From: an uncultured Lachnospiraceae bacterium | GTDB lineage: Bacteria > Bacillota > Clostridia > Lachnospirales > Lachnospiraceae | DNA: 64,000 bases | Assembly: GCA_944380185.1 (NCBI GenBank) | Contig: CALWGV010000038.1 | Location: 144,589 to 208,588, forward strand | Direction of reading: 5' to 3' | In this document: one piece after another, positions 13,464 through 60,757 of the stretch | Numbering within the stretch: the stretch's first letter is position 1 | How the letters are laid out: every line of letters begins with the position of its first letter | The notes under the pieces: model-generated | Databases searched by the model: none | What the model saw: the letters and a program-made list of their open reading frames with translations, nothing else | Told to the model about the DNA's origin: nothing | Translations under genes and position numbers: made by a program

Positions 13464-13486
13464 CTCATCACCTCCCCTTTTCCGGC

Positions 13487-14862: not shown

Positions 14863-14947
14863 CCTTCTCCCCATCTCCTCCTTCTATTTCTTGTCTTTAT
14901 CATATCTTTTTCCGATTGCTTTTTCGATTACATATTGTGTGAGTTTT

Positions 14948-35945: not shown

Positions 35946-36046
35946 AGCAGAACCAGAAGTATTCGCATTCCCAACTGTCACATTAAAATGTGATATGTCA
36001 TAAAAACAAATGGAAAAAATGTAAAGTATTGCAGTCGGAAACCTTC

Positions 36047-36104
36047 TATAATTAAGGAAAGGGGCCTGGCCGGAGCGTCCTTCGCCCGCGGCCGGGTCCT
36101 TTTT
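36047..36104 (+). terminator. terminator, possibly an attenuator, before the next Gfo/Idh gene
   Basis: An 11-bp GC stem with two G-T pairs (36062-36072 with 36089-36099) and five T (36100-36104). A -10-like TATAAT lies just upstream at 36047-36052, without a clear -35. The hairpin may therefore end the preceding gene or sit at the front of the following transcript. Confidence 0.65.
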
Positions 36105-36141
36105 ATCACAGCAAGGTCTTAAATGAAGGAGGATTTCTGTT

Positions 36142-37083: not shown

Positions 37084-37133
37084 ATAAAAGGCAATATTTG
37101 TGCGGCGCGATGCAAAACCAAGGAGGAGAATCT

Positions 37134-38267: not shown

Positions 38268-38320
38268 AATAAAGCCAAAGAGAAACATTGACCATACAAA
38301 AATCAGGAAAGAGGTATCCT

Positions 38321-40240: not shown

Positions 40241-40289
40241 CTGGAGCGTTGAACCGGCTGCCTGCTCGATGATAAAAAGTAAAACAAAA

Positions 40290-40307
40290 GCCGCTGCCTG
40301 CAGCGGC
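40290..40307 (+). other. leader hairpin, copy 2
   Basis: GCCGCTG, CCTG, CAGCGGC followed by AGAAGGGAGATATCACCATG. It differs from copy 1 at one loop base, so leader and gene were duplicated together. Confidence 0.6.
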
Positions 40308-40324
40308 AGAAGGGAGATATCACC

Positions 40325-44900: not shown

Positions 44901-46204
44901 CCGGAGATCACAAACAGACCTCCGTCGCTGGTGTAGGCATGGCCTAACACGGTAATGCCGTCGTAGAGCCAGTCTTGGGGCTGCCCATCTTCATCCAGGT
45001 AGGCCACTGCCGCCTTATATTCATCCACCGTCTTGTAGGTCTCCGTCAGCTCGCTGTTGACTGTACCCCACCCCTGATAAGCCAGGTATTCATGGTGTAC
45101 CCCGCCGGACTGGGAGGGTGTAGCATAGCTCTCCCGGGAAACCTCCTCCTCCAGCAAGTCATCCGGGTTGAAGGGATCCGCATTTTCGGAGGGCGCGGTA
45201 CTTCCGCCCGCCAGAAGCTCATCGGCAAACACCCATGTTCCCACGGTGAACCGTACTCGCAAATATCTGGCATTGTAATTGAGCCCGGTCAGCCGATAGT
45301 ACAGATGACTCGGCTCCGTCTCCGTCAAATCCGTCGGATCCGCCTCATCAGCCTCAGCCTGCTCCTGGGTCACTGTCCCCACATGATAGTAATCCGTTCC
45401 ATTTTCGGAGAGATAAAATTCCACCTCCGTCAGAGGATTGATGCCATATCCGCCGCAGACGCCGATATGCAGAGCAGCTTCCGTCACATGAGAAATCTGT
45501 CCCAGGTCTATGGTGATATCGCGGCTGTCTCCCCGATACATATTTACATACAGGGACCGCAATCCTTGCGGGTCATCCCAGCTTCCGGACACCCAGTCAT
45601 CCTCAGCCTTCCGACCGGCAGCCATCACCCCGTCGATCAGCCGGTCCCAGGATGCCTCCTCGATATCCTTGATATTTCCCTTACTGGCATCGTTGTTGTA
45701 ATACGGCGTTTCATCACCAATTATATAGGAAGATACTGCCGCATTTTCCGTCAGGCTCTGAGCCTGCGCATCGGAAAAACTGCTCTGTCGCGCGGCAGAA
45801 CCGTTCTCAGCCAGCTCATTTACCTGCACAGGAGTCGTCGCCGCAGGACTGCTCTCCTCCGTCCCGGATTCCCATTCCGTTTCCGGCTCCGGCTCCCCCT
45901 CTGATTCCACTTCGGACTCTGCCGGAGATTCTTCTTCGGATTCCGCTTCGGACTCTGCCTCAGACGCTTCTTCGGATTCTGCTTCGGACTCTGCCGCAGA
46001 TTCTTCTTCAAATTCCGCTTCGGATTCTTTCTCCGGCTCTGTTTCCCCGTCTGTTGCCGTCTCCTGCGTTTCTTCCATCGTTTCTTCCACGCTGCTTCCC
46101 ACAGGACTGGTCTCGTCGGCAAACGCCGTCGTCATTGTCCCCAATAACATACACAATGCCAGCAGCAGCGCCAGCCAGCGCCTTCGCGGCCTTTTTCTCA
46201 TCAT
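41966..46204 (-). CDS. large surface protein, DUF4855-like domain with discoidin-like modules
   Basis: The product has 1,412 residues from ATG at 46204 (GGAGGG at 7 nt). A signal peptide (about 1-30, ending TTAFA) precedes a Glu/Ser-rich linker (about 32-120) made of ESE repeats. A discoidin-like module follows (about 165-325), then a TIM-barrel-like domain (about 350-760) with the layout of DUF4855: YKTVDEYKAAVAYLD, NYRTQDGQAANMDALEQAV, SGFYFYNE, WIPYYTATGYKNWEDYGFDYAIMQPNAY. At least three more discoidin-like modules follow. The end has PTGETES, a hydrophobic helix and KKKRLE, resembling a non-standard sortase signal. Likely wall-anchored glycan-binding or glycan-cutting protein; the reaction is unknown. 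Confidence 0.75.
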   Translation of the reverse strand: MMRKRPRRRWLALLLALCMLLGTMTTAFADETSPVGSSVEETMEETQETATDGETEPEKESEAEFEEESAAESEAESEEASEAESEAESEEESPAESEVESEGEPEPETEWESGTEESSPAATTPVQVNELAENGSAARQSSFSDAQAQSLTENAAVSSYIIGDETPYYNNDASKGNIKDIEEASWDRLIDGVMAAGRKAEDDWVSGSWDDPQGLRSLYVNMYRGDSRDITIDLGQISHVTEAALHIGVCGGYGINPLTEVEFYLSENGTDYYHVGTVTQEQAEADEADPTDLTETEPSHLYYRLTGLNYNARYLRVRFTVGTWVFADELLAGGSTAPSENADPFNPDDLLEEEVSRESYATPSQSGGVHHEYLAYQGWGTVNSELTETYKTVDEYKAAVAYLDEDGQPQDWLYDGITVLGHAYTSDGGLFVISGSNTDYADKADWDAWLNHIYNYRTQDGQAANMDALEQAVAEVKEAMVAEGILTREEADSYVVPVKIAVYPTIHSFSDWGTTDETVHVTKAEDGTLSITGITQEPMDCDFTLAGNGGDVDQTLTARASAYYWYMKKAAEMFAEKDYQNIALSGFYFYNEILYPVEDSLAEDSVKLYNMLVDYIAQEKGYEKLYSYWIPYYTATGYKNWEDYGFDYAIMQPNAYGYGQARLDTAADFSYFYGLGVEMEWMGMNTPGYVDTFIQYLTTGAAKGYQEGVQAWYWGTWDLAQLCRGEGSYADYRYIYDLTYQYISGNAVYSDNLLQTAQVSLKFRNAADTSALDSKLYLLYDGVYGDEAVWSTNVLQINNNSFQAPTEIVAKLAETSAVTSLQLYFYDWQSAGVYEPYVVQYFVSADGEDWQLIGTAKGEDDYKLTVPDGLAADYVMARIINYAENSTLKAWIGVEEFVISGSPTTRQTDIPQIEENLLTQNENVQLTLTDSAGTPVVPSNTNELSVLIDGEQGGAWNGGYYCWSSTAYEDPFDLTVDLGEEFYVNAAGLSLYEWMSAGVGLPESVNIYGSADGTSWTYLGTVKDYVVTAGNTSDGTDAAFILELSDEMLLRYVRFNFARSENLYLQNGRNNWIAPGEVMVSGRSANEGTDAEQLTENLLDMDAENMEAAFIGTPNVNGEAGLETVNSLLYLLTDNIFGSSYPGTYNNPDNSPYVGFNYGWTGSYDPAAWNSGWENEGYRLSADLGALYELSGIAIDFLSYESASVMPPEMVTFWVSTDGESWTMAGTAAAQDALVKAAGTASGQTKNYYVINMDDAPVVARYIRWEFALADRDENGTYAFVMFDEIQAAGTAHEHTYEETVVAPTETEQGYTLHLCSRCGYSYRDQYVPAVGTAPEEPPEESTEGSSEGSTESQQPPAGGSSSSSGAEQAPAGGSQTPTGETESPATWMILAFMGAALLMLTVLMGKKKRLE
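45850..46055 (-). repeat. tandem Glu/Ser codon repeats in the surface-protein gene
   Basis: Imperfect copies of a 12-36-nt unit encode ESEAESEEES-type repeats, forming an acidic spacer between signal peptide and folded domains. Such tracts change length easily by slippage. Confidence 0.75.
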
Positions 46205-46270
46205 AAAACAACCCTCCACAATTACTTTCATCTTAGAAACTTTTGTCTTAGAGCTTTTAGAACTTTTGTC

Positions 46271-46931: not shown

Positions 46932-47804
46932 TCACTTCAGTCCCGACGTCGTCTGAATACCGTTTAGAAACGCGTTCTGACACAGGAAGAAAATCACAAT
47001 CAGGGGAAGGGTAAAAATCGTGCTGGCCGCCATCAGAAGCGTCCACTCCGGATTAGCCGCCTGTCTGAACATCTGCAGGCCGATGGACAAGGTATATTTG
47101 GAACTGGACTGCAGGTACAAAAGAGGACCGTTCAGATCGTTCCACCCGGCGATGAATACCAGTACAGCGATGGTCGTCAGGATCGATTTGCACATCGGAT
47201 ATACGATGTAGTACAGGATCTTGATATCGCTGGCTCCGTCTATGCGGGCGGCCTCCATAATACTGCTGGGCAGAGATTTCATAAACTGGCGAATCAGATA
47301 GATATAGTAGGCGCTTCCAAAGAAGCTGGGAAGGATCAGGGGCACGAAGGTATCCACTAACCCCAGTCTGGACCAGATCGTATACATGGGAATCTGGGTC
47401 ACCTGCCAGGGAATCATCATCGTCGCCAGAATCACGGGAAAGATATATTTCGGTCCCTTCCACGGAATCTTTGTCAGCGAATATGCCACCATAGGGCATG
47501 AGAACAGGACGCCGATCACCGGACAGATGGACAAAATCAGGGTATTCTTGATATATTTCAGCAGGTCCATCCTCTGGAACACTCGGACAAAGTTATTCCA
47601 TACCACCGGGTTAGGTATCCACTGCGGCGGGACGGAAAACACATAGGCCTCGGATTTCAGCGCCGTGCAGACCATCCAGTACAGGGGGAGCAGAAAGATA
47701 AAGCTGCAGAAGATCAGCATGACGATTCCAAATCCATGGGAGATGCGCCCGCGAATTCTGCGCCGCCTGTAATAACTCTTTTTTACCGTAGCTGCTTTGC
47801 TCAT
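46932..47804 (-). CDS. ABC sugar transporter permease, MalG/LacG type
   Basis: The product has 290 residues with six predicted membrane helices. The EAA loop reads MEAARIDGASDIKILYYIVYP, and the C-terminal segment FFLCQNAFLNGIQTTSGLK is usual for the CUT1 family. It pairs with the upstream permease, which ends 12 nt before it. No ATPase gene is nearby, so the system probably shares a common MsmK-type ATPase, as CUT1 importers of Firmicutes often do. Confidence 0.93.
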   Translation of the reverse strand: MSKAATVKKSYYRRRRIRGRISHGFGIVMLIFCSFIFLLPLYWMVCTALKSEAYVFSVPPQWIPNPVVWNNFVRVFQRMDLLKYIKNTLILSICPVIGVLFSCPMVAYSLTKIPWKGPKYIFPVILATMMIPWQVTQIPMYTIWSRLGLVDTFVPLILPSFFGSAYYIYLIRQFMKSLPSSIMEAARIDGASDIKILYYIVYPMCKSILTTIAVLVFIAGWNDLNGPLLYLQSSSKYTLSIGLQMFRQAANPEWTLLMAASTIFTLPLIVIFFLCQNAFLNGIQTTSGLK

Positions 47805-47816
47805 CTCTCCACCTCC

Positions 47817-48782
47817 CTATTCCACATCGTAGTTGACCATGCGCTTGGATACCCGCAGCGTCAGAGCCGTGGCCAGCATAATGATGACAAAGAGCAAGAT
47901 GGCCATAGCGCAGGCGTATCCCATCTTATAGAACAGGAACGACTGCCGATACAGGTACAGACAGTAGAACAACATGGAATTGCCGGGACCGCCGCCTATG
48001 GAGCCTGCCGTGTCCGTAAGGCTGGCAAACACATAGGCCTGACTGAAATACTGGAACCGTGAGATCATTCCCATCAGAAGGTTGAACTCCACCGTGGGCG
48101 ATATATAAGGCAGGGTAATGCGAAAGAATCGGGTAATGCCGCCTGCACCATCCATCTCCGCGGCCTCATACAGTGAGGCAGGTACCGACCGCAGCGCTGC
48201 CAGGAAAATGATCATGGCGCTGCCGCAGCGCCAGGTATCCATAATGATCAGAGATACCTTCGTCCATTTCGGATCATTGAGCCAATACGGTCCATCTATT
48301 CCAAACAGATTGAGGATCTGATTGATCAGACCGTAATTGCCGTTCAGCACCCACATAAACAGCATGGCGCTGGCCACCACCGGCACCAGAGTCGGCAGAT
48401 AAAAAATAGTACGGAATACCGGCAGGCCAAATACCTTTCTCTGATTCAGCAAAAGAGCCAGACAGAGAGCCACAATCAGCTCTGCGGGCGTGCCGATAAG
48501 CACCATAAAAAGGGTGTTTTTCAGAGAGAGACCCACATAGGGATCATGAAACATATCGATATAGTTTTTCAGCCCTACCCATGTCGGTGAAGTAAACAGA
48601 TTGTAGTCGGTGAAGCTGTAATAAAATGCCAGCAAAATCGGTACAATGGTAAAACAGATAAAACCGATCAGCCAGGGGGATGCAAAGAGCAGCCCTGTAC
48701 GGAAAAATCTCCGTTCCCTCTTGGTCGCAGAAATTGTTTTTGCAGATTTTACAATAGCCTTTTCTTTCTTGTTATGCCTCAT
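47817..48782 (-). CDS. ABC sugar transporter permease, MalF/UgpA type
   Basis: The product has 321 residues from ATG at 48782 (GGAAGGG at 5 nt). Six helices follow a basic N-terminus (KRERRFFRTGLLFASPWLIGF). The EAA loop reads YEAAEMDGAGGITRFFRITLP. It forms the membrane channel with the MalG-type partner. A hairpin (48809-48839) separates it from the binding-protein gene upstream, which would give more binding protein than permease. Confidence 0.93.
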   Translation of the reverse strand: MRHNKKEKAIVKSAKTISATKRERRFFRTGLLFASPWLIGFICFTIVPILLAFYYSFTDYNLFTSPTWVGLKNYIDMFHDPYVGLSLKNTLFMVLIGTPAELIVALCLALLLNQRKVFGLPVFRTIFYLPTLVPVVASAMLFMWVLNGNYGLINQILNLFGIDGPYWLNDPKWTKVSLIIMDTWRCGSAMIIFLAALRSVPASLYEAAEMDGAGGITRFFRITLPYISPTVEFNLLMGMISRFQYFSQAYVFASLTDTAGSIGGGPGNSMLFYCLYLYRQSFLFYKMGYACAMAILLFVIIMLATALTLRVSKRMVNYDVE

Positions 48783-48808
48783 ATTTTCCCTTCCATCTAC
48801 AAAAAGTA

Positions 48809-48839
48809 CAGGGAGAACCACGAAAGGCAGCTCTCCCTG
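48809..48839 (-). other. hairpin between binding-protein and permease genes
   Basis: An 8-bp stem (CAGGGAGA/TCTCCCTG) with inner pairing, followed on the minus strand by TACTTTTTG. It is likely a partial terminator or mRNA processing signal that sets the gene ratio. Confidence 0.6.
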
Positions 48840-48865
48840 CAGAGCGAAATATCACATACGAACGA

Positions 48866-50224
48866 TTACTGTATAGCCGCTTCTACCTCAGCCTGTACAT
48901 TGGCTACTGCCGTATCCAAATCCAGTGTACCCGACAGATACTGAGACATATGGGTGGAGATAGCCGCCAGATACTCGGAAACATAGCCGCTCATCGGGAA
49001 GGACTGAAGCTCAGCCTCCATCAGCATGGTAGCGGCATCCTTGACCACCTCAGGCACATCCATCTGGGTCAGAGCTTCCAGAGAGCTGTAGCGAGGCATA
49101 TAGAAGCCATTGTTGCCCGTGCCTTCAGCCAGATAAGCCATGGACTCAGCAGAGCTCAGATAGGAGAGAACTTCCCAGGCTGCATCGGCGTGAGCCGTCT
49201 TGGCATTGATCTCGTAGACGCCGGCGGTCAGCATGGAGTTGCCGGGAACTGCGGCAAACGCCCAGTCGGTGCCGTACTCATATCCGGCCTCTGCGCCGTT
49301 GGCCAGCAGATCGCCCAGACCGCTGTCTGCCTGGAATCTCATTGCGCACACACCGGACAGAACGGGATCAGTAGCCGTGGCACGAGTGGAATACCAGTCG
49401 GAGCCCCACGCGGAAACTGCCGTATATCCGCCCTGATAATCGATCAGCTCCTTCTGAATGGAGTAAGCCTCGCGGATTCCGTCATTGTCAAAGTCAGGGT
49501 TGCCGTCTGCATCTTCCCACTGAGCCTCCACCATGGCCGGCCACAGCACATCGTCCTGCCAAGGGAAGATCGGAGAAAGACCCATCTGCGTGGTCCCACC
49601 CACATCATAGCAGTCCTTGGCGCACTGAATCAGATCCTCCACTGTAGTGGGGAATTCGGACCAGCCGGCAGCTTCCAGCACGGAAGGGTTATACAGAACA
49701 TAAGTCGTGGAAGCGGACAGCGGGATGGAATAAATGCTGTCGCCTACCATGCACAGATCCCATACGGCATCCAGAATATCATCCTTGTCAAAGCTCTCAT
49801 CATTGTCCACATAGGAGGTCAGATCAAGGATCGCTCCATTGGCCGCCAGAGGAGCTGCATACTGCCAGTACATCTGGAAGATATCCGGCGTTCCCTCGGA
49901 AGCGATAGCCGTCACGATATTGTCATAGGTCTTGCCCAGAGTAACCTGGATCTGAATATCGTCATGAGTGGCATTAAATTCCTCTGCCAGCTTCAGCAGA
50001 CGAGGTCCCTGCGTCGTCTCATCCTCATCCTCGGCATACATAGACCAGACAGTCACGGTAGTCACCTCGCCGGTACCTCCCTCGGTCTGTTCTTCACCGC
50101 CGGCCTCCTGGGTTGCCGCTGCGGTTTCGCCGGCTGCCGGCGTCGTCTCCGTATTTCCGCCGCTGCATCCGGCTAACGCCAATACCATGGCCATAGCCAT
50201 AATCAATGCTACTAGTTTCCTCAT
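48866..50224 (-). CDS. ABC sugar-binding lipoprotein
   Basis: The product has 452 residues, with AGGAGG before ATG. The lipobox is LALAGCSGG (Cys about 20), followed by a Thr/Glu-rich linker. The mature part is a type-1 solute-binding fold (VTTVTVWSMYAEDEDETTQGPRLLKLAEEFNATHDDIQIQV). It captures a sugar or oligosaccharide outside the membrane for the two downstream permeases. It is the first gene of the five-gene operon ending with the surface protein. Ligand unknown. Confidence 0.93.
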   Translation of the reverse strand: MRKLVALIMAMAMVLALAGCSGGNTETTPAAGETAAATQEAGGEEQTEGGTGEVTTVTVWSMYAEDEDETTQGPRLLKLAEEFNATHDDIQIQVTLGKTYDNIVTAIASEGTPDIFQMYWQYAAPLAANGAILDLTSYVDNDESFDKDDILDAVWDLCMVGDSIYSIPLSASTTYVLYNPSVLEAAGWSEFPTTVEDLIQCAKDCYDVGGTTQMGLSPIFPWQDDVLWPAMVEAQWEDADGNPDFDNDGIREAYSIQKELIDYQGGYTAVSAWGSDWYSTRATATDPVLSGVCAMRFQADSGLGDLLANGAEAGYEYGTDWAFAAVPGNSMLTAGVYEINAKTAHADAAWEVLSYLSSAESMAYLAEGTGNNGFYMPRYSSLEALTQMDVPEVVKDAATMLMEAELQSFPMSGYVSEYLAAISTHMSQYLSGTLDLDTAVANVQAEVEAAIQ

Positions 50225-51492: not shown

Positions 51493-52476
51493 ATGAAAAT
51501 TGCCATGCTTTTGGATCAACAGATTCGTCCGCAGGTGATGGATGAAGAAACCTGCCGTCTGTTTCAGTCTGCCGGTACGGTAGTCTGGAATCAGACCACC
51601 GAAAATGAACCGGAAAACGCGCGCAGACTCCTCGAAGGGGCAGACATTGCCGTGACCAGCTGGGGCAGTCCTGCTCTCACCGCCGATCTGCTGGATGCCG
51701 CTCCCCATCTCAGACTGGTGCTGCACGCAGCCGGCAGTGTAAAATCCGTGGCCACCGATGAAATGTATCGCCGGGGGATACAGATCGTCTCCTCCGCCTG
51801 TGTTCTCAGCAGCGGCGTATCGGAGACTGCCCTGGGGCTGACCATCGCCGCCTGCAAAAACTTCTTCGCCCTCAACCAGGAAATCCGGCAGGGCGGATGG
51901 TCCCACGACAATATAACGGATCTCTACAACATCACCGTCGGCATTGTCAGCATGGGAATAGCCGGAAGCCATTTTGCAGAGCTTCTGCAGAATTTTTCCG
52001 TCCATGTCATCGCCTATGATCCCTATGTTTCCCGCGAACAGATGGCCGCCCTGGGTGTTAAGAAAGTGACCTTCGACGAACTTCTCGAACAAAGTGATGT
52101 CATCAGTCTGCATGCTCCCACCGGCGACGCCACCTACCACATGATCAACCGAAAGACCCTGAGCCAGATGAAGGACGGCGCCATTTTGATCAACACGGCC
52201 CGCGGCTCCCTCATCGATGAACCGGCCCTGATCGAAGCTCTGGAAAAGAAAAAACTTAAGGTCGCCTGTCTGGACGTCACGGATCCTGAACCGCCCGCCC
52301 CGGACAGCCCCTTGCGCTCCCTGCCCAACTGCATACTGACTCCCCACCTGGCCGGGCAAGCCGGCAATGGCCTGTGCAAGATCGGCATGCACTGCTACGA
52401 GCAGATGCAGCATTTTTTGGCCGGAAAGCCTATGACAGGTGAGGTCAGCCAGGAGATGCTCAGCCGAATCGCATAA
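51493..52476 (+). CDS. D-isomer-specific 2-hydroxyacid dehydrogenase family protein
   Basis: The product has 327 residues. The catalytic set is present: Arg in INTARGSLIDEPAL, Glu in DVTDPEPPAPDSPL and His in LTPHLAG. The nucleotide motif reads GIVSMGIAGSHFAELL, so the first Gly of GxGxxG is Ser, and Ala replaces Ile/Ile-like residues. The acidic residue after the second strand is retained (AYDPY), suggesting NAD use. It should reduce or oxidise a 2-keto/2-hydroxy acid from sugar breakdown. The next gene starts 14 nt after its stop. Confidence 0.85.
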   Translation: MKIAMLLDQQIRPQVMDEETCRLFQSAGTVVWNQTTENEPENARRLLEGADIAVTSWGSPALTADLLDAAPHLRLVLHAAGSVKSVATDEMYRRGIQIVSSACVLSSGVSETALGLTIAACKNFFALNQEIRQGGWSHDNITDLYNITVGIVSMGIAGSHFAELLQNFSVHVIAYDPYVSREQMAALGVKKVTFDELLEQSDVISLHAPTGDATYHMINRKTLSQMKDGAILINTARGSLIDEPALIEALEKKKLKVACLDVTDPEPPAPDSPLRSLPNCILTPHLAGQAGNGLCKIGMHCYEQMQHFLAGKPMTGEVSQEMLSRIA

Positions 52477-52490
52477 AAGGAGAGGGGAAC

Positions 52491-53777
52491 ATGAGCCGAA
52501 TTATTTTTACGCAAAGTGCTCTCCGAAGGGAGCCCTTAAAACGCCCCTTTGGCTTTAAGGGAGGCTCTCTCAGCGAGCTGTGGCAGATTGTCTGCCTCGT
52601 GGAAGACGACGAGGGAGCGAAAGGTCTGGGGCTGGGCGTACAGAGTGTGCTGTGGAGCGATGCCGCCCTGTCTGCGGCCCTCGGCCAGGAAAAAGGCAAT
52701 CAGCTGATGCTCTCCCTGACCCGCCACGCCCTCTCCCTCCTGGAGGGAAAGGAACTGCTGCGCCCCGATCTCATGACACAGCAGCTGATCCCGGCCGTTT
52801 GGGAATACGGGAAAAGCAAAGGATTTCCCGCCATGCGTCTGACCTTCGTTCTCAATGCGCTGACACCGGTGGACTGGGCCTTATGGCGGCTTTATGCCGG
52901 CAAAACCGGCTCTCCCTGCTTTGCGTCTCTGGTGGCTCCTCTCACCCAAAGTCTGTGTGCAAAGCAAAAGCTTCTGGGAAATATTCCGCTGATCTCTTAT
53001 GACACGACTGAGGAAGATATTCTCGCCCTGGCGGACCAGGGGACCTTTTTGTACAAAATAAAAATCGGCTCCGCTCCGGCGGGGCCGGGCGATCTGGATG
53101 CCATGCTCCAGTGGGATATCGCCAGACTAAGACAGATACACCGACTGGTGGGCGAGCGAGAGACGCCCTGCACCTTCTGTGGTCACCCTCTTTATTACCT
53201 GGATGCCAACGGCCGGTACGATACCACGGATCGGGTGATGGCTCTGTTGGACGCGCTGGATCGCCATGGAATCCTGGAGCGCGTCCTTCTTCTCGAGGAA
53301 CCTATGCCGGAGGATCATCTGCAGGATGTCTCCCGTCTTCCGGTGCGCGTGGCCGGCGATGAGAGCGCTCACAGCGATGAGGATGCCATCCGGCTGATGG
53401 ATGACTACGGTTACCGTGCCATCGCCCTCAAGCCCATCGCCAAGACGCTATCCGTGACTCTTCGGATCTGCGAGGAGGCCGCCAAAAGACAAATCCCCTG
53501 TTTCTGTGCCGATCTCACCGTAAATCCGGCCATGGTCGAATACAACAAAAACGTAGCCGCCCGTCTTCTCCCTCTGCCCGGCCTGAAGGTCGGCGTGCTG
53601 GAGAGCAACGGAGAGCAGAATTATCAAAACTGGGATGAGATGAAGAAATTAAATCCGGCCCAGGGTTATCCCTGGGCCGAAGCCTGCAACAGTCTGTATC
53701 ATTTAAACGACGACTACTATGCCTGTGACGGCGGCATCTGGCTGCCCTGCACAGAATATGAGCGTTGGCTGAACTAA
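52491..53777 (+). CDS. enolase-superfamily (mandelate racemase/muconate lactonizing-like) enzyme
   Basis: The product has 428 residues with GGAGAGGGG before ATG. The KxK acid/base motif is K189-I-K191, and metal ligands are Asp238 (LYYLDANG), Glu270 (LLLEEP) and Glu291 (AGDES). K314 (ALKPIAK) is on the opposite side of the barrel. This fits the superfamily and suggests proton abstraction alpha to a carboxylate, as in sugar-acid dehydratases. The substrate is unknown; pairing with the 2-hydroxyacid dehydrogenase suggests a short sugar-acid pathway. It is convergent with nagB, 5 nt apart. Confidence 0.83.
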   Translation: MSRIIFTQSALRREPLKRPFGFKGGSLSELWQIVCLVEDDEGAKGLGLGVQSVLWSDAALSAALGQEKGNQLMLSLTRHALSLLEGKELLRPDLMTQQLIPAVWEYGKSKGFPAMRLTFVLNALTPVDWALWRLYAGKTGSPCFASLVAPLTQSLCAKQKLLGNIPLISYDTTEEDILALADQGTFLYKIKIGSAPAGPGDLDAMLQWDIARLRQIHRLVGERETPCTFCGHPLYYLDANGRYDTTDRVMALLDALDRHGILERVLLLEEPMPEDHLQDVSRLPVRVAGDESAHSDEDAIRLMDDYGYRAIALKPIAKTLSVTLRICEEAAKRQIPCFCADLTVNPAMVEYNKNVAARLLPLPGLKVGVLESNGEQNYQNWDEMKKLNPAQGYPWAEACNSLYHLNDDYYACDGGIWLPCTEYERWLN

Positions 53778-53782
53778 TTCGG

Positions 53783-54544
53783 CTATTCCAGCAGAGAGGA
53801 ACTGTCCGGATCCAGATACAGCGCGGCTCCCGGATGACGGCGCAGAACGGAGGCCGGACAGCTCTCTTCCACGGGCCCGGTGCAGGCTGCTCTGACTGCC
53901 CGGGCCTTGGTTGCGGCCGGAACGACGCAGAACATGTATCTGGCCGCGCACAGAGCCGGTATCGTCAGCGTCACGGCACAGACCGGCACCTGATCGATGC
54001 TCGCAAAGCATCCGTCGTGGACCTGCTGCATGCGGCATACCTCGTCAAGCTTTACCAGCTTCACCAGCTCTGCGTCCTTAAAATCCGCCACCGGCGGATC
54101 ATTGAAGGCAATATGCCCATTTTCGCCGATTCCCAGGCAGACGATATCCACAGGATACTGCCGGAGCAGATCGCTGTAGTTTCTGCAGATCTCCTCCGGT
54201 GTTTTTCCTGCCTCCCGAAGATAATATCTCGCCCGCATGTTTACCTGCATAAACAAGGTGCGGTCCAGAAAATTGCCGAAGCACTGACTGGCCTTGGGAT
54301 CCAGGCCGCAGTATTCATCCATATGGAAAGCACGCACCCGTTCCCAGGGAATGTTCCTGTTTTCTCTGAGCGCCTCCAGCATTTCATTCTGCGAGGGAGC
54401 TGCCGCAAAAATCATATTGCACTCTTCTTTTTCCGCCAGAATCTGTCCGATGGCCGCAGCCACGTCCGCAGCCGCAGCCTGTCCCATCTCCCTGCGGCTG
54501 CCATAAACCTTGACCTTCAGCTGATCATATTTCTCCTCTCTCAT
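53783..54544 (-). CDS. nagB: glucosamine-6-phosphate deaminase-like protein
   Basis: The product has 253 residues. Hallmarks are FHMDEYCGLDP (about 93-103), the catalytic FGNFLDRTLF segment, and LGIGENGHIAFNDPP (about 155-169). It converts glucosamine-6-phosphate to fructose-6-phosphate and ammonia. Compared with typical NagB, the segment after GENGHIAFNDPP is more diverged and the C-terminus shorter, so a related deaminase/isomerase is possible. Its start lies 20 nt inside nagA; GGAGG precedes ATG. Confidence 0.85.
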   Translation of the reverse strand: MREEKYDQLKVKVYGSRREMGQAAAADVAAAIGQILAEKEECNMIFAAAPSQNEMLEALRENRNIPWERVRAFHMDEYCGLDPKASQCFGNFLDRTLFMQVNMRARYYLREAGKTPEEICRNYSDLLRQYPVDIVCLGIGENGHIAFNDPPVADFKDAELVKLVKLDEVCRMQQVHDGCFASIDQVPVCAVTLTIPALCAARYMFCVVPAATKARAVRAACTGPVEESCPASVLRRHPGAALYLDPDSSSLLE

Positions 54545-55745
54545 TTCTCCTCCTGTCCCGGTATTCTTTGTTTTCCCAGCGCACTCTGCCGTCCGTAAGC
54601 ACCATGCAGATATTTATATTTTCGTCAAAAAGAACCAGGTCCGCCGCCCGACCGCTCTCTACTCGTCCGGTGACGTCTTCCAGTCCCATGATGCGGGCCG
54701 GCGTCTCCGTCAGCATCTTCACCGTGTCCATAAGGGTAGCCCCAGCCAGCCGCATCATCGTGCGGGCCAGCCGATCCGTGGTGCAGACGCTTCCCGCAAA
54801 GGCTTTTCGGTCCGGCATTTTGGCCACTCCATCCTCTATGATGACTCTCTGTCCCTTGGAGAGGCTCCCCAGAATGCTCTCTCCCTCCGTCTGCCCGGCC
54901 GCACGCATGGCGTCCGTCACAAGAGCCAGCCGGTCCGGGCCGATAAAGCGATAGGCCATCTGCAAAAGCTCAGCCGGAAGGTGGCATCCATCCGCGATGA
55001 CCTCGCTGGTAAGCTCCGGCAGCACATAGGCGCTCTCCACAACGCCGCCGCGGCGGAAGCCCCCTTGTCTGGTCACCGTGGACATGGCTGAATACAGGTG
55101 CGTGACATGGGTAAAGCCGTGGGCCATCGCTTCTTTTACCTGGGCATAAGTGGCATCGCTGTGCCCGATGGAGCTTCTCACTCCATGTTTTTTCAGATAG
55201 TCGCCCATGGCAAAAGCTCCCTCCAGCTCAGGCGCCACGGTCCAGCGCCGGATATCCGGACACAGCTCGACCAATTTTTCGTACTCCTGCGGTATCGGTC
55301 CGCGGATAAAGGCCGGATCCTGGGCTCCGCTCTGGGCCGGCGCCAGATAGGGGCCCTCCATATGCAGCCCCAGCAGTCTGGCCCCGTCCCCCAGCTCATC
55401 CCTGCACGCATTGTACATCCTGGCCGCAGCAGTCATCTCCTCCATCGTGGCCGCCAGCGTCGTCGCCACGATTCCTGTGGTTCCGTGCTGCAGATGGAGA
55501 CGGCGCACTCCATCCCAGGCCTCCCGGGTGCCGTCCATGAAATCATAACCGCCGCCCCCATGGACATGGATATCGATAAATCCATGGGACAGATAAAAGC
55601 CGTCGGCATCAATCTCCTCCTCCGCGCCCCACCCCTTGCCCGGCGGAAGCACATTGGTAATTTTTCCATCCTGAATATACAGATCGCAGCGGGTAATCCT
55701 GCCATCCTGCACCAGCTTTGCATTACGTATAACGGTATTCATCAT
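54525..55745 (-). CDS. nagA: N-acetylglucosamine-6-phosphate deacetylase
   Basis: The product has 406 residues. The amidohydrolase HxH motif is in GFIDIHVHGGGGYDF, the metal Glu in LGLHMEGPYLAPA, with IGHSDATYAQV, FTHVTHLYSAM, IADGCHLP and the catalytic Asp in LALVTDAM. It removes the acetyl group from GlcNAc-6-phosphate, feeding the next gene (NagB). ATG overlaps the TGA of the TIM-barrel gene (ATGA), indicating coupling. Confidence 0.94.
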   Translation of the reverse strand: MMNTVIRNAKLVQDGRITRCDLYIQDGKITNVLPPGKGWGAEEEIDADGFYLSHGFIDIHVHGGGGYDFMDGTREAWDGVRRLHLQHGTTGIVATTLAATMEEMTAAARMYNACRDELGDGARLLGLHMEGPYLAPAQSGAQDPAFIRGPIPQEYEKLVELCPDIRRWTVAPELEGAFAMGDYLKKHGVRSSIGHSDATYAQVKEAMAHGFTHVTHLYSAMSTVTRQGGFRRGGVVESAYVLPELTSEVIADGCHLPAELLQMAYRFIGPDRLALVTDAMRAAGQTEGESILGSLSKGQRVIIEDGVAKMPDRKAFAGSVCTTDRLARTMMRLAGATLMDTVKMLTETPARIMGLEDVTGRVESGRAADLVLFDENINICMVLTDGRVRWENKEYRDRRRNERGEI

Positions 55746-56605
55746 CTCTCCATAACCTGTCTGATCAGTTCCTTCAGCGCTGCGGCGCTTTCAGCCGTCG
55801 CCTCCCAGCCTCCGGCGGTAAATCCCGCTCCCTGGGGGCGGCGCAGCTGTTCCTCCGACAGCGCAGCATTTTTGCGGTAATGTGTTTCCAGGGACAGCCA
55901 CCCATCGTACCCGTCGGCCGTCAGTCTGGCGAGAAGCGCCGGATAATCCACCAGTCCTGTCCCGATCTTTACGCACTCCGGCCCGTTTTCCCCCAGCACA
56001 GCATCCTTGATATGGATATGACCGATATATGGGGCTATTGCCTCATAACCGTCAGGGTAAGGTATCTCTCCCTCCGGATCATAGATATCGTTTCCCGGAT
56101 CGTAGATCGCGCCAAATATCTCACTGTCCAGTCTGCTCAGCAGACCGGCCAATGCTCTGTGATTGGTCGTATTCACGCTGGGATCGGCCTCCAGCAGAAG
56201 CTTCTTTCCCCATTCGCGCAGAATGCGGGCCGGCTCCTCATAAAAGGGAAGCAGCTCCCCCACCGAAGCACATCCTCCCTCCTGCCAGAAGGAGAATCCC
56301 CGCAGCACCGGGCAGTCCAAAATCTCTGCCGCGGCACACAGCCGTTTTAGCTTCTCCCATTCCGCCTGTACGGCCCTCGCATCCAGCCGGCTGCACTTGT
56401 AAAATGAACCGGCTATACTGCACACAGCCAGCCCTTTCGCATCAAGCTGCCGTTTGCATTCAAGCAGCGTCTCCTTTCCCAGCTGGTCCACAGGCAGATC
56501 ATTCACACTGCGCAGCTCCAGCCCCTGCAGCCCATATTGCTCGGCAAAAACCAGGGCCTCGTCAAAACTCTGGGTAGCTTCATCGGTTATAAAACTCAAT
56601 TTCAT
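55742..56605 (-). CDS. sugar phosphate isomerase/epimerase-like TIM barrel (AP endonuclease 2 family)
   Basis: The product has 287 residues. Typical strands are MKLSFITDEATQSFDEAL, GLQGLELRSVN, LLLEADPSVNTTN (metal Glu), GAIYDPGNDIYDPEG (metal Asp/His region) and IGHIHIKDAVLG, with the last Glu in LSLETHY. The family includes sugar isomerases/epimerases and the lyases that split 3-keto-glycosides by beta-elimination. It lies between a Gfo/Idh gene (49 nt upstream) and nagA (overlapping). Which reaction it carries out cannot be read from the sequence. Confidence 0.85.
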   Translation of the reverse strand: MKLSFITDEATQSFDEALVFAEQYGLQGLELRSVNDLPVDQLGKETLLECKRQLDAKGLAVCSIAGSFYKCSRLDARAVQAEWEKLKRLCAAAEILDCPVLRGFSFWQEGGCASVGELLPFYEEPARILREWGKKLLLEADPSVNTTNHRALAGLLSRLDSEIFGAIYDPGNDIYDPEGEIPYPDGYEAIAPYIGHIHIKDAVLGENGPECVKIGTGLVDYPALLARLTADGYDGWLSLETHYRKNAALSEEQLRRPQGAGFTAGGWEATAESAAALKELIRQVMER

Positions 56606-56654
56606 TTACAATCCCGTCCTGTCCGGCTCCTGTCCTATATTTTATGGCTGATGG

Positions 56655-57686
56655 TCACGCAAATTTGATAATCTGTCCCGTGCGGGTGGATTCATAGATG
56701 GAACAGATCACCTGCACGGCCTTGTCCGCCTTCCACGGCGGAATCAGCGGCTCTCTGTCCTCTCTTACGGCCTCGGCGATATCGCGCAGAAGGCAGATAT
56801 GGCCATAAATCCCGATATCCACCGCACTCTTCGCCCCGCCCACTCTCTCGCCTGTCTCCGGCCTGGGCGGTGCATCCTGCTCGTCGATAAAGCTCCACTG
56901 GCGGATTCCCTCATCGTCAAAGACGATGCTCCCCTTCTCTCCATATACCGCAAAGGTTGTCGAAAATCCGGGATAGGCGGTGGTGGCTCCTTCGATTACA
57001 CACAAAGTCCCCTTCTTCATCCGCAGAACGGCCGCCGCCGTATCCTCCACAGGAATCCTGCGGCAGAGCGTATCGGCCCTTCCGTACAGGGTGTCAATCT
57101 CATCGTCCAGCATCCAGAGGATCAGATCCACTCCGTGAACCCCCTGATTCATCAGTGCGCCGCCGCCGTCCAGCTCCCAGGTGCCCCGCCAGCCGGCACT
57201 GTCATAATAGGCCTGGTCCCGGTAATACTTTAGCTGGGCCTCCGCCAGACAGATCTTCCCCAGTCTGCCCGAGGCGATAATATCGCGCACGGCAATGGCT
57301 ACCGGCATCATCCGTCTCTGAAAAATGCACTGCATCTTTGTATGGTTCTTCTTTACCGTCTCGATAATTGCCGCAATTTTCTCCGGCGTGATCTCCATAG
57401 GCTTTTCGCAGACGATGGCCTTTCCCGCTTCCGATGCGGCGATACAGATTTCCCCGTGGATTCCGCTGGGCACGCAGACGCATACGATATCCACCTGCGG
57501 ATCGGCAAGCACCTCATGATAGTCGTAGTAGACCTTCGGCACTGCATGATCCCTGGCATACTGATCCGCCTTCTCCTTAATGATGTCGCAGCAGGCATAA
57601 AGCCGGCAGTCCTCGTTTGCCAGCGCTTTCAGCGCTTTTGCGTGAGTAAAGGCAATTACTCCGCAGCCAATCACCGCAAAATTCAT
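56655..57686 (-). CDS. Gfo/Idh/MocA oxidoreductase
   Basis: The product has 343 residues. The Rossmann motif is VIGCGVIAFTHAKAL (5-19), the EKP motif is in IVCEKPMEI, and the catalytic region reads GGGALMNQGVHGVDLILW (usual Lys/Asp/His pattern). Very similar to the protein encoded at 59663-60757 (GVHGVDL, WRGTWELDGGGALMNQG). It should oxidise a sugar hydroxyl with NAD(P). It lies between an AraC gene (29 nt upstream) and the TIM-barrel gene. Confidence 0.92.
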   Translation of the reverse strand: MNFAVIGCGVIAFTHAKALKALANEDCRLYACCDIIKEKADQYARDHAVPKVYYDYHEVLADPQVDIVCVCVPSGIHGEICIAASEAGKAIVCEKPMEITPEKIAAIIETVKKNHTKMQCIFQRRMMPVAIAVRDIIASGRLGKICLAEAQLKYYRDQAYYDSAGWRGTWELDGGGALMNQGVHGVDLILWMLDDEIDTLYGRADTLCRRIPVEDTAAAVLRMKKGTLCVIEGATTAYPGFSTTFAVYGEKGSIVFDDEGIRQWSFIDEQDAPPRPETGERVGGAKSAVDIGIYGHICLLRDIAEAVREDREPLIPPWKADKAVQVICSIYESTRTGQIIKFA

Positions 57687-57715: not shown

Positions 57716-58552
57716 TTAAAAAGTGTAAAACCGGTTCCCCGCATTGCGCATTCGGTATTCCAGCGGAGAACAGTGTTCCTTCTCTTTGAAAAAGCGGCTG
57801 AAGTAGTGAATAGTCTGAAAACCCACCAGCTCCGATATCTCGGAGATGCTGATGTTGGTCTCCACCAGCAGTTCCTTCGCCTTCTTTAACCGCAGCTGTA
57901 TGATATAGCGCAGCGGCGTTGTCCCGTATACTTCCTTAAATGCCTGCGTCAGAGACGTCTTATTGCTGCGGGCCACCTGTGAAAGGGTATCCAGCGTGAT
58001 GTTATGGATGTAGTTTTCCTGTATGTAGCGCTCCACTCCTGCGATATCGATATTTCTCTGGCGCACCGGCACGCTTCCCTCCGGCTCCGGCAGGGCAGAC
58101 AGAGCCTCCTGCTCCTCCTGCGTCTGCGGGCGCAGAAGCATTAACAGAATCATCCACAGATAGCAGGAGATAGTTCGCATGTAAAAGGGCGGTTTTTTCT
58201 CACTCTCCGCCATGATCCGGTTGAAATAGTATTTGACCGTCTGCACATCATCCAGGTGTCTGAGAACAGGCAGCTCCCAGAGCTTTTGGAACAGCCCGGC
58301 CTCATTGACGTCAAATTTCACATCGTAGAGGCGCAGCGTTCCCCGCTTCTCCTCCCGGGGGCTGATTCCGTGAAGGGTCTGCGGACGAAACAGGAGCACA
58401 TCGCCGGCCCTCGCCTCCAGCATCTGATCGTCGGCCTGAACCTGTGCGTCCCCCTCCGACACCACGACCATCTGAAAGAACGTGTGCTCATGAAGCTTAT
58501 TTTCCCAGTCCTGAGAATACTTTCCGCACCACAAGATATCGTATCCGTTCAC
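57716..58552 (-). CDS. AraC family regulator of the Gfo/Idh-TIM-nagA-nagB operon
   Basis: The product has about 278 residues from a GTG at 58552, chosen because AAGGAG lies 8 nt before it; an ATG at 58603 has no such site. Residues 10-120 form a cupin sensor (LHEHTFFQMVVVSEGDAQVQ, GDVLLFRPQTLHGISP). The C-terminal AraC domain has VERYIQENYIHNITLDTLSQVARSNKTSL, ISISEISELVGFQTIHYFSRFFKE and SPLEYR. As first gene of the operon it probably controls its own transcript in response to a sugar. Confidence 0.88.
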   Translation of the reverse strand: MNGYDILWCGKYSQDWENKLHEHTFFQMVVVSEGDAQVQADDQMLEARAGDVLLFRPQTLHGISPREEKRGTLRLYDVKFDVNEAGLFQKLWELPVLRHLDDVQTVKYYFNRIMAESEKKPPFYMRTISCYLWMILLMLLRPQTQEEQEALSALPEPEGSVPVRQRNIDIAGVERYIQENYIHNITLDTLSQVARSNKTSLTQAFKEVYGTTPLRYIIQLRLKKAKELLVETNISISEISELVGFQTIHYFSRFFKEKEHCSPLEYRMRNAGNRFYTF

Positions 58553-58748
58553 CCACAACACTCCTTTTTGCTTTCGTGAAACCCTGCTAGTCGGGACTTT
58601 CATACATATCTGCAGCCTACATCTGTATTATGGGACATAAAAGCAGATAAAAAAAGGAATATCGTCCACAAAACCTGTCATTTATGCTAAAATAACTTTA
58701 TCACATGCAGTTAACAGAAAAAAACCAACGACAGCAGGAGGAACAGAA

Positions 58749-59717
58749 ATGGATTACGAACAGACTCCTATGCTTATGGAAAAAGCACAGATGTTTGATA
58801 AAGTAAAGTTCTGCAAGATATTCGAGGCCTCTGATGAACACCCCACCGGGAACATTCCTCATTATCACGATTATACGCAGATCTGGTATGTGCGCCGGGG
58901 CTGCTGCGAACACTGGCTGGAAGGGAAAAAATACGAGATGGCCAGAGGAAATGTGTTTGTCCTCCCTCCTCTGCTGACCCACATGACCCGGTTTCAGAAA
59001 AACTCAGCTATCATCAGCTGTGAATTTGATCTGAACCAGCTTTTCGGCGGCCAAAACGGAGAAAAGGCGGACTCCATCTCTCTTCCGCTGCAGTCCGCCC
59101 TGAATATTATCTCCTTCAATCTTCTGTTTTCACAGAACGACAAGGTAAAATCCAACTTTGTCCTCTCTCCTGTGGCAGAGCAGGAGGTGGGAGCCCGAAT
59201 GAAAACTCTCCTGCGCGAATATGAGGAAGAGCAGGTATATTACCAGGAATTTCTGCAGGTGGAGATCCAGGGCCTTCTGCTCTTACTGGCCAGGGAGTTT
59301 CATCAGTCCCCCGTCCACGACGCCTCAGTGGAAATCTACAATCAGAATAAAGCCATCATGGAAAAGGCCATAGAATATATCGACGAACACTATGCAGAAC
59401 CATTAACTCTGGAACAGGTCTGCCGCCTGTCCACCCTGTCAAAGACCTACTTCTGCTATCTGTTCAAGCTGATGACCCAGCAGACCTTCGTGGAATATAT
59501 GCTGAATCTGCGCATTCGCCATGCCGCGGCGCTTTTGGAGAACAGTTCTCTGCCCATCACCGCCATCGGAGGTATGGTGGGCTTCAACGATTCCACCCAT
59601 TTTTCCCGCACGTTTCACCGTCTGGTGGGCATGTCTCCCCGCAGCTATCGCTCCTTAAAGCGTCAGCCCTCCGCAAAGGGAAACTCCGTGGGAAGGCCTG
59701 AGGAGGCGGAGCGGTAG
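58749..59717 (+). CDS. AraC family regulator, probable control of the uronate or nag operon
   Basis: The product has 322 residues; AGGAGGAAC precedes ATG. Cupin region: IPHYHDYTQIWYVRRGCCEHWLEGKKYEMARGNVFVLPPLLTH in sense (split by typical His/Gly positions). HTH: LEQVCRLSTLSKTYFCYLFK and ITAIGGMVGFNDSTHFSRTFHRLVGMSPRSYR. It is divergent from the other araC-type gene, with 196 nt between the starts. Its 3' end overlaps the convergent Gfo/Idh gene by 55 nt. The target is uncertain. Confidence 0.9.
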   Translation: MDYEQTPMLMEKAQMFDKVKFCKIFEASDEHPTGNIPHYHDYTQIWYVRRGCCEHWLEGKKYEMARGNVFVLPPLLTHMTRFQKNSAIISCEFDLNQLFGGQNGEKADSISLPLQSALNIISFNLLFSQNDKVKSNFVLSPVAEQEVGARMKTLLREYEEEQVYYQEFLQVEIQGLLLLLAREFHQSPVHDASVEIYNQNKAIMEKAIEYIDEHYAEPLTLEQVCRLSTLSKTYFCYLFKLMTQQTFVEYMLNLRIRHAAALLENSSLPITAIGGMVGFNDSTHFSRTFHRLVGMSPRSYRSLKRQPSAKGNSVGRPEEAER

Positions 59718-60757
59718 GCCCCCAATACCAGCTCCACCGCCTTTCTGCCCTCCCTGCCGTCCACCAACAGAGGCGTGCCGTCGAGGACGGCAGAGACCAG
59801 ATCCGCCACTTGACAGATATGTCCTTTGGCATCGATGTCCGCAGCGTTTCTGTGGGAGGCAGCGGTCTTTTGCCTCTCCGGAATTCTCCCGGGGATCCTC
59901 TCCTCCCTTTCCTCCTGCGCCTTCATATCCGCAGCATCCTTCGTCAGCTCTGCAGCAGGATTATCCCGCTCCAGTCTGACAATCTTATCCTCCTCCAGGA
60001 TTAATGTTCCCGCGTCGCCGCACAGCTCAATCCGTCTGGGATAGCCGGGATATACGCTGGTAGCCGCCTCGATCACCCCCAAGGCCCCGTTTTTAAACTG
60101 CATAACAGCGCTCAGCGTATCCTCCGTCTCAATCTTGCGGCTCAGGGTGCCGGCACAGGCAAATATTCTGGAGACCGGGCCGACAATATACTGAATCAAA
60201 TCAACCCCGTGTATGCCCTGATTCATCAGGGCCCCTCCTCCGTCCATATCCCAGGTTCCGCGCCAGGGACTGCCGTCATAGTATTCCTGGCTTCGGTAAT
60301 ATTTCATATACAGCCCCACGCTGACCAGACGTCCCAGCGCACCCTCTCTGACCATCTGTCTGGCCCTGGCCACGTCAGGAGAAAAGCGCAGCTGACTGAC
60401 CACGCAGACCAATCTGTCGTTCTTTACCCCCGCCTCAATGAGACGATCGCAGTCGGACAAGGTAAGTGCCATAGGCTTTTCGATCAGCACATGCTTCCCA
60501 TGCTCCAGTGCTTCCAGGGCGATCATGGCATGAAGACCGCTGGGAACACAGATCGACACAGCTGCTACCTGTGCATCCTTCCAGATTTCCTCCCGGGAGG
60601 CGTAGCGCTTCACTCCATTCTGCGCAGCCATGCGCTCGGCGGAATCCTGATCTTCGCCATAGACGCCGATCAGCTCTGCCCTCTCCACAGCCGCAATGGC
60701 CGCCGCGTGATAACGGGAAATCATCCCGCAGCCAATGATTGCAAATCCAACGTTCAT
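59663..60757 (-). CDS. Gfo/Idh/MocA oxidoreductase in the uronate operon
   Basis: The product has 364 residues. Motifs are IIGCGMISRYHAAAI (7-21), VLIEKPMAL and WRGTWDMDGGGALMNQGIHGVDL. It is a paralogue of the protein encoded at 56655-57686 but carries an extra charged segment (about 275-320, ERDNPAAELTKDAADMKAQE and following). It is the last gene of the uronate operon, 24 nt after kdgK, so oxidation of a uronate-containing sugar is likely. Its 3' end overlaps the convergent araC-type gene. Confidence 0.9.
   Translation of the reverse strand: MNVGFAIIGCGMISRYHAAAIAAVERAELIGVYGEDQDSAERMAAQNGVKRYASREEIWKDAQVAAVSICVPSGLHAMIALEALEHGKHVLIEKPMALTLSDCDRLIEAGVKNDRLVCVVSQLRFSPDVARARQMVREGALGRLVSVGLYMKYYRSQEYYDGSPWRGTWDMDGGGALMNQGIHGVDLIQYIVGPVSRIFACAGTLSRKIETEDTLSAVMQFKNGALGVIEAATSVYPGYPRRIELCGDAGTLILEEDKIVRLERDNPAAELTKDAADMKAQEEREERIPGRIPERQKTAASHRNAADIDAKGHICQVADLVSAVLDGTPLLVDGREGRKAVELVLGAYRSASSGLPTEFPFAEG

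Follow-up and report, generated by a model that had tools for sequence, protein, structure and literature searches.

Several described systems of sugar metabolism combine Gfo/Idh dehydrogenases with proteins of the triosephosphate isomerase (TIM) barrel fold. In E. coli, YcjQ-YcjR-YcjS comprise guloside and glucoside 3-dehydrogenases and a 3-keto 4-epimerase (by annotation and in an excerpt of PMC11543891). DgpA/DgpB-C, AtOGE/AtHYD with a Gfo protein, and LgdA-B1-B2-C all proceed by oxidation, elimination, hydration and reduction, and join a C3 dehydrogenase to an eliminase. Here we describe a likely operon in which a Gfo/Idh protein (GfoA) and a TIM barrel (hereafter the TIM) are coupled to a NagA-like and a NagB-like protein. 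It lies in a stretch of 64,000 nucleotides from an uncultured Lachnospiraceae bacterium (contig CALWGV010000038.1, positions 144,589 to 208,588), the whole of which we call the window. Our leading reading, which we hold tentatively, is that the locus encodes an oxidation-isomerisation-reduction module that would act on an N-acetylhexosamine and feed a specialised deacetylase/deaminase pair.

It is useful to compare this locus with the systems named above. At first sight it is similar to YcjQRS, in as much as both place dehydrogenases around one TIM barrel and include an ABC transporter, and YcjR matches the profile of the window TIM (hhalign 96.4%, E 1.4e-9). There are also differences. Firstly, the E. 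coli stretch has no amino-sugar genes, unlike the window. Secondly, YcjR does not have the ITDE motif, R32, K70, R102, D141 and H242 of the window TIM family. The eliminating systems differ in another respect. According to an excerpt of PMC10628242, the A. tumefaciens operon encodes the eliminase, with its catalytic His134, and the hydratase as separate proteins, and levoglucosan use involves LgdB1 and LgdB2, though LgdB2 alone may carry out both steps (excerpt of PMC7676230). These two systems contain two TIM-type proteins, as opposed to one TIM here, which does not have the His. The parts of the locus are of known kinds and its logic is like that of YcjQRS, IolG/IolI and the 3-keto lyase operons; what appears to be new is the pairing with a NagA/NagB-like pair with altered loops. 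In searches of an open-licence library we recognised no description of a Gfo/TIM/NagA/NagB operon, which is not proof of absence. Amino sugars are major constituents of host mucins and glycosaminoglycans, and the locus would connect them with the 3-keto-sugar systems, a growing group; it also offers a cassette for testing in Firmicutes that have been little studied.

The four-gene run and its conservation

The run and the regulator gene beside it are given below in the order of transcription, with window coordinates.

57716-58603, minus strand: AraC-type regulator (family named from sequence), directly upstream of GfoA; homologue in 15 of 69 loci
56655-57686, minus strand: GfoA, Gfo/Idh dehydrogenase, WlbA/DgpA-like, probable sugar C3 dehydrogenase (PF01408, PF22725, PF02894; profile against solved structures)
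55742-56605, minus strand: TIM barrel of the ITDE-type subfamily, metal site E139/D169/H196 or H198/E240, acid D141 (PF01261, 93.2 bits)
54525-55745, minus strand: NagA-like amidohydrolase (deacetylase) with altered substrate loop (TIGR00221, 248.2 bits, cut-off 225.65)
53783-54544, minus strand: NagB-like protein, FAAAPSQNE replacing the TGSTP-type loop (PF01182)

The gaps between these genes are 29, 49, -4 and -20 bp, and one operon is likely for GfoA to NagB because the last three are so short. An earlier note on this DNA had proposed a Gfo/Idh and TIM-barrel pair in one operon with nagA and nagB, and the coordinates and families confirm these genes, the label NagB being a loose one.

A five-row alignment of the TIM, scanned against the species genomes of GTDB, gave the 69 loci, and 36 of them (L018-L053) form the close set. 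Locus counts come from tblastn with the window proteins and from a codon-weighted gene caller, as a first caller took some antisense frames in GC-rich loci. Judged by title, the close loci are mostly from Firmicutes and mostly from gut metagenome genomes; L036, L041, L044, L046, L048 and L051 are apparently not from the lower gut, and L050 and L052, both without NagA, are from Armatimonadetes. The nearest relative, L018, is an uncultured Lachnospiraceae bacterium, and the source bacterium is probably from the gut. No relative was found in viral contigs. The TIM is rare in the source's own family: at E<=1e-20 it was matched in 7 of 299 genomes, and in two of the seven the identity is only 29-30%.

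The tightest part of the cluster is TIM-NagA-NagB, as TIM is followed by NagA within 300 bp in 25 of the 36 close loci and NagB comes next in 22. By tblastn, NagA was matched in 27, NagB in 25 and GfoA in 21 of the 69 loci, and all NagA, NagB and GH20 matches are confined to the close set. Of the 27 NagA-bearing loci, 25 have at least one Gfo match (with 27% identity in L037), and the remaining two are contigs of less than 6 kb. A ten-gene divergent cluster, with GfoE, GH20, GfoB, enolase and D-2-hydroxyacid dehydrogenase genes on one side and AraC, GfoA, TIM, NagA and NagB on the other, recurs in L025, L026, L029, L031, L035, L042 and L043.

A 12-seed TIM model made for this analysis, applied to the available DNA of each locus, found the window and 34 of the 36 close loci to contain a single TIM, with a second match in L018 (27 bits) and L051; no accompanying hydratase TIM lies beside the TIM in the window. 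A bifunctional enzyme of the LgdB2 kind would have no need of such a partner. Four proteins of the source genome (2.9 Mb, 84% complete) match PF01261; besides the TIM these are, by eye, Nfo, a UlaE-like protein and UxuA.

Active sites and the proposed route

GfoA was compared with solved structures through a 15-row profile consisting of the window protein and those of 14 of the 21 GfoA-bearing loci; matches below 40% identity or covering less than half of the query had been dropped from the sequence collection. The best matches are 3q2k (222 bits) and 3q2i (212 bits), named only as oxidoreductase and dehydrogenase in the database, which we take to be WlbA, the UDP-N-acetylglucosaminuronic acid 3-dehydrogenase. 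DgpA is the next-best solved relative, with two proteins at 143 and 142 bits, followed by 3ezy, an unnamed dehydrogenase (141 bits), the glucuronide-3-dehydrogenase 8tdi (126 bits) and inositol dehydrogenases (117-120 bits). The Rossmann Gfo fold, the EKP lysine and the N-Q-x-x-H motif are all present, and K95, Y160, Y161, W166-R167-G168, D173-G-G-G, M179-N-Q, H184 and D187 are invariant in 15 of 15 rows. The window GfoA and 3q2k have in common the motif YYD-x-A-x-WRG-x-WE-x-DGG-x-MNQ-x-x-H, with small changes in 3q2i. No NCBIfam equivalog was matched above cut-off. Since the nearest solved relatives are those taken to be WlbA, a 3-keto amino sugar is plausible, and our best guess from sequence is that GfoA oxidises C3 of a 2-acetamido sugar; C1 oxidation stays conceivable. 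WlbA is biosynthetic and dependent on nucleotide sugars, as opposed to the catabolic-looking operon here. The earlier idea of a Gfo protein from a group that includes C3 dehydrogenases, beside a metal-site TIM and conserved with amino-sugar genes, is supported.

The TIM was placed among reference enzymes by its predicted structure and by profile scores, the latter standing in for a tree. Its AlphaFold2 model has a mean predicted local distance difference test score of 95.7. Among the best 50 of 1802 Foldseek rows most are isomerases and epimerases (query TM-score 0.65-0.78, 13-19% identity), none is an eliminase by title, and the hydratase AtHYD has rank 42; the matches include Art22 isomerase, ketose 3-epimerases, IolE, UlaE and AsbF. 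Among the best 60 of 68 profile matches, Art22 (80.7 bits), AsbF (68.8), UlaE (50.1), IolI (48.3), IolE (43.0) and a tagatose 3-epimerase all stand above AtHYD (33.7), which is followed by the 3-keto-D-glucoside 4-epimerase 6wn6 (30.3), DgpC1 (21.9) and 7bvs/7exb (13.7). AtOGE was not recognisable by name in this list, and 8qvc and 8qrz (22-23 bits), for which the database names give no more than sugar phosphate isomerase or TIM barrel, may be 3-keto enzymes of a related kind.

An alignment of 59 of the 70 possible TIM rows (69 loci plus the window; the 11 omitted were partial or further distant rows) has 20 invariant positions, including ITDE at 6-9, R32, K70, R102, E139, D169, H196, H198, K200, D201, E240 and H242. 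The metal ligands of the sugar phosphate isomerase/epimerase kind (E139, D169, H196/H198, E240) are therefore present in every row, and E139 and E240 are also found in E. coli YcjR, Hyi, FrlC, YgbM and UlaE. In 3-epimerases of the TIM superfamily both metal glutamates form the acid/base pair.

Eliminases have a catalytic His two positions beyond the metal ligand of strand 5 (His134 in AtOGE, His143 in PuCGE; excerpt of PMC10628242), and the H143A change lowers the activity of PuCGE to 10.4% (excerpt of PMC8563793). The corresponding site, placed by sequence and predicted strand rather than by superposition, is Asp or Glu in 59 of 59 TIM rows: D141 in all 32 close rows, and Glu in 23 and Asp in 4 of the 27 distant ones. 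AsbF has His at this position in the profile alignment. The acid kept at this site in the TIM family could itself act as a base.

The NagA/NagB-like pair may be compared with the pathway for N-acetylglucosamine 6-phosphate, using the residue roles that we take to hold for NagA and NagB, including N219 and R227 as a loop on the phosphate side. All 28 rows of the NagA-like protein retain the metal-site residues and the catalytic Asp (E131, H195, H216, H251 and D273). N219 is Ser in 27 of 28, and Arg is aligned at 227 in all 28, preceded by a four-residue insertion in every row except L046. Of the E. coli NagB residues, D72 and H143 are retained in the NagB-like protein, as is K208 in 26 of 26 rows. 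However, the TGGTP/TGSTP loop is replaced by FAAAP, R172 by Gln and E148 by Asp in all 25 rows that cover these sites (that of L026 is incomplete and gapped at the loop), and no kinase or phosphotransferase system gene was seen in the operon. The NagB-like protein fails the nagB cut-off (105.3 bits against 236.9), which a canonical NagB elsewhere in the source genome passes at 290 bits. Judged from these alignments, the phosphate loop typical of NagB is no longer present in the NagB-like protein. The locus points to a NagB-like family, found in 31 of 398 phylum genomes sampled (E<=1e-45), that is without this loop in the 25 aligned rows; the NagA-like protein was found in 22 of 392 order genomes (E<=1e-90).

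What the data show is which genes are present, how their order is conserved, where the proteins fall among known families and which residues are changed; from this we infer all the reactions and the substrate of the following scheme. An N-acetylhexosamine, set free by the GH20 hexosaminidase described below or still in a glycoside, would be oxidised at C3 by GfoA with NAD. The TIM with its bound metal would take and return a proton next to the ketone, so that the configuration at C2 or C4 is changed or the ketone is moved, and a second Gfo protein (GfoD or GfoB, see below) would reduce the product. The NagA-like protein would then remove the acetyl group and the NagB-like protein the ammonia by aldose-ketose isomerisation, its substrate probably not being plain glucosamine-6-phosphate. 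Such a scheme would resemble the guloside to glucoside conversion of YcjQRS, or IolG/IolI. We favour it because GfoA is nearest to 3q2k/3q2i and has their common motif; because profile and Foldseek scores of the TIM favour isomerases and epimerases and both metal glutamates are invariant; because a single TIM is the rule and Gfo matches accompany nearly all NagA-bearing loci; and because GH20 belongs to the cluster and the NagB-like loop and R172 are changed throughout while a canonical NagB is encoded elsewhere.

Neighbouring genes and glycan context

The other genes of the window that bear on the route are as follows.

59663-60757, minus strand: GfoB, the second Gfo/Idh protein, with 35% identity to GfoA; best matches in 23 of 69 loci, of which eight reach only 26-35% identity
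60782-63901: UxaC, KdgK and Eda, upstream beside GfoB
52491-53777, plus strand: enolase-superfamily protein (KxK ... D, E, E ... K; MR_MLE_C); found in 18 of 69 loci
51493-52476, plus strand: D-2-hydroxyacid dehydrogenase family protein; found in 17 of 69 loci
46932-50224, minus strand: ABC transporter for sugars, made up of two permeases and one binding protein (named from sequence); each permease has homologues in 12 of 69 loci
40325-41626, plus strand: GfoE, Cys-rich Gfo/Idh, adjoins GH20; 10 of 69 loci
38288-40240, plus strand: GH20C-type hexosaminidase, no signal peptide by eye; 13 of 69 loci
36142-37083, plus strand: GfoD, short Gfo/Idh, no NCBIfam match; 11 of 69 loci, adjoining GfoA/TIM in several relatives
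34602-35945, plus strand: GfoC, Cys-rich Gfo/Idh, 81% identical to GfoE

The hexosaminidase has the GMDEAH motif and is the only PF00728 match in the source genome (84% complete). The earlier statement that the operon contains no classical glycosidase is correct for the four-gene run but not for the wider locus, given this gene and the GH20 genes near the TIM in 13 of the 36 close loci. Within the plus-strand run GfoC-GfoD-beta-lactamase-GH20-GfoE (34602-41626), GfoC and GfoE flank GfoD, a serine beta-lactamase-type protein and the hexosaminidase, probably as a duplication around the latter. The enolase-superfamily and 2-hydroxyacid dehydrogenase genes lie just downstream of the operon on the opposite strand. 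The KxK...K invariants of the former are kept in 18 of 18 rows, and only two very weak matches to solved structures were obtained. Next to the sugar transporter, at 41966-46231 on the minus strand, is the gene of a large protein that carries DUF4855 and F5/8-type C domains and is apparently secreted.

In relatives, the genes near the TIM include GH123 (L027), GH125 (L037), a sulfatase and a heparinase II/III gene (L040), and GH38, GH4 and a BadF-type ATPase (L053). The neighbouring glycan genes point to host-type glycans with amino sugars and name no single substrate. KdgK is matched in 4 of 69 loci, and no other recurring kinase was recognised across the 69, for which part of the recurring genes was annotated. 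Elsewhere the source genome has five ROK matches and five BadF-family matches (two below cut-off); none of the three ROK matches that were scanned is above a kinase cut-off.

The NagA/NagB-like pair also occurs in other settings. We selected 34 regions from genome-search matches in other genomes, several of which end at contig ends; a TIM match is present in 3 (with 29% identity in one of these) and a window-type Gfo match in 11. Some hold SIS-domain genes, an AGE epimerase, or TRAP or TTT transporters near the pair. Several modules thus probably feed it, the Gfo/TIM module being one of them. Examples of pairs without a TIM near SIS-domain proteins are L164, L165, L167, L169 and L192 (L169 by Pfam, the rest by eye), some with TRAP-type transporters or AGE epimerase.

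Weighing the readings

A number of observations weigh against the oxidation-isomerisation-reduction scheme. The NagA-like protein passes the nagA cut-off, and a second protein of the source genome, L091, barely passes it (226.2 against 225.65) without H251. NagA and NagB matches without a TIM match were found in 22 of the 34 regions from other genomes. The operon has no kinase, and the fate of the product is unexplained. GfoA also scores 129 bits with glucose-fructose oxidoreductase, which is a C1 oxidant. AsbF, the second match of the TIM profile, is a dehydratase, and the invariant R32, K70, R102 and K200 would suit an anionic substrate. The site two residues after E139 is Leu, Ile or Met in YcjR, Hyi, FrlC, YgbM and UlaE; as the TIM has an acid there instead of a hydrophobic residue, this mark in the sequence sets it apart from standard epimerases as well as from standard eliminases. 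Finally, in L055-L086, mostly from Armatimonadota by title, an ITDE-type TIM with the same invariants in the aligned rows is found apart from sugar genes, often beside genes of SurA-type peptidyl-prolyl isomerases (by Pfam for L057, otherwise from gene lists). As these distant relatives often adjoin SurA-type rather than sugar genes, the fold family is not tied to the amino-sugar pathway.

Among the other readings we take first the route of the earlier note, in which GfoA would form a 3-keto-N-acetylhexosamine glycoside and the TIM would eliminate the aglycone, with D141 as the base in place of His; after addition of water and reduction by a second Gfo protein, N-acetylglucosamine would pass to NagA and NagB. 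We consider this route unlikely, and elimination on 3-keto glycosides is not favoured for the TIM, because isomerase, epimerase and dehydratase scores exceed those of DgpC1 and 7bvs/7exb, because the His is replaced by an acid throughout, and because the TIM is single. The view of the TIM as an eliminase is thus not supported, isomerases, epimerases and AtHYD outscoring DgpC1 and 7bvs/7exb, and the presence of GH20 also speaks against the route. A grouping with inosose isomerases had been named as the observation that would count against it, and IolI and IolE do largely take that place above the eliminases, though not strictly, and the conserved acid leaves room for elimination. This acid at the catalytic-base position, the several Gfo genes and the high place of AsbF, with its His, are points in its favour, and an excerpt of PMC7676230 suggests that LgdB2 carries out elimination and hydration alone. 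Moreover, a second PF01261 gene adjoins the TIM in L054 and L175, and L186 has three other PF01261 genes with NagA- and NagB-like genes; L175 and L186, with their NagA/NagB relatives, carry these further barrels together with Gfo genes. Likewise doubtful is a broader non-hydrolytic path, in which GfoA would act on an N-acetylhexosamine or a uronide to give its 3-keto glycoside, the ITDE-type TIM would break or rearrange this with Asp/Glu instead of His, and the altered NagA/NagB pair would process an unphosphorylated product.

Less probable again is that the TIM is a plain epimerase or isomerase of a phosphorylated amino sugar (e.g. the 6-phosphate of N-acetylgalactosamine or N-acetylmannosamine) that feeds NagA/NagB, the Gfo proteins serving other steps. 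The tight TIM-NagA-NagB order, the cationic residues, which suit a phosphate, and the GH4 and BadF-type ATPase genes that adjoin TIM-NagA in L053 agree with it. However, the NagB-like protein is without the usual phosphate loop and R172, Gfo matches accompany 25 of 27 NagA-bearing loci, and KdgK is infrequent, with no other recurring kinase recognised among the genes annotated.

We also regard as improbable a use of the locus on glycosaminoglycan-type substrates, with Gfo and TIM acting on the uronic acid part through a 3-keto-uronide, and GH20 with NagA/NagB on the hexosamine part. UxaC, KdgK and Eda in the window, the 8tdi score of GfoA, the invariant R32, K70, R102 and K200, the sulfatase and heparinase II/III genes beside the operon in L040, which have cluster-mates in L027 and L030, and the fact that enolase-superfamily enzymes act on carboxylates would all fit. 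Against this, UxaC is found in 1 of 69 loci, the source genome (84% complete) has no heparinase II/III match, and it appears by eye to have its own UxuA.

The least likely of these alternatives is that one or more Gfo proteins (GfoC/E, GfoB) are NAD-dependent glycosidases of the GH109/NanOx type, with the TIM in a later step: GfoE adjoins GH20, 5 of the 34 other regions have GfoC/E-type matches close to a NagA- or NagB-like gene, and RgNanOx is a single enzyme for all four steps (excerpt of PMC7676230), but the NCBIfam matches of GfoB, all below cut-off, are IolG, UDP-N-acetylglucosamine and levoglucosan dehydrogenases.

A few other candidates were discarded. The KxK-K motif of the enolase-superfamily protein is like that of L-Ala-D/L-Glu epimerase and, with the D-2-hydroxyacid dehydrogenase and an M55 peptidase in L013, hints at peptidoglycan recycling; N-acetylmuramic acid, however, carries an ether at C3, and the peptidase cluster is found in only 4 of 36 loci. 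A mannonate dehydratase is unlikely as the function of this protein, since the source genome appears by eye to have UxuA. For glucosaminyl-inositol and aspartylglucosamine as substrates there are single-locus hints only. Elsewhere in the window, at 12795-14874 on the minus strand, a tandem pair of 222-residue proteins is encoded beside a protein that is metallo-beta-lactamase-like by eye.

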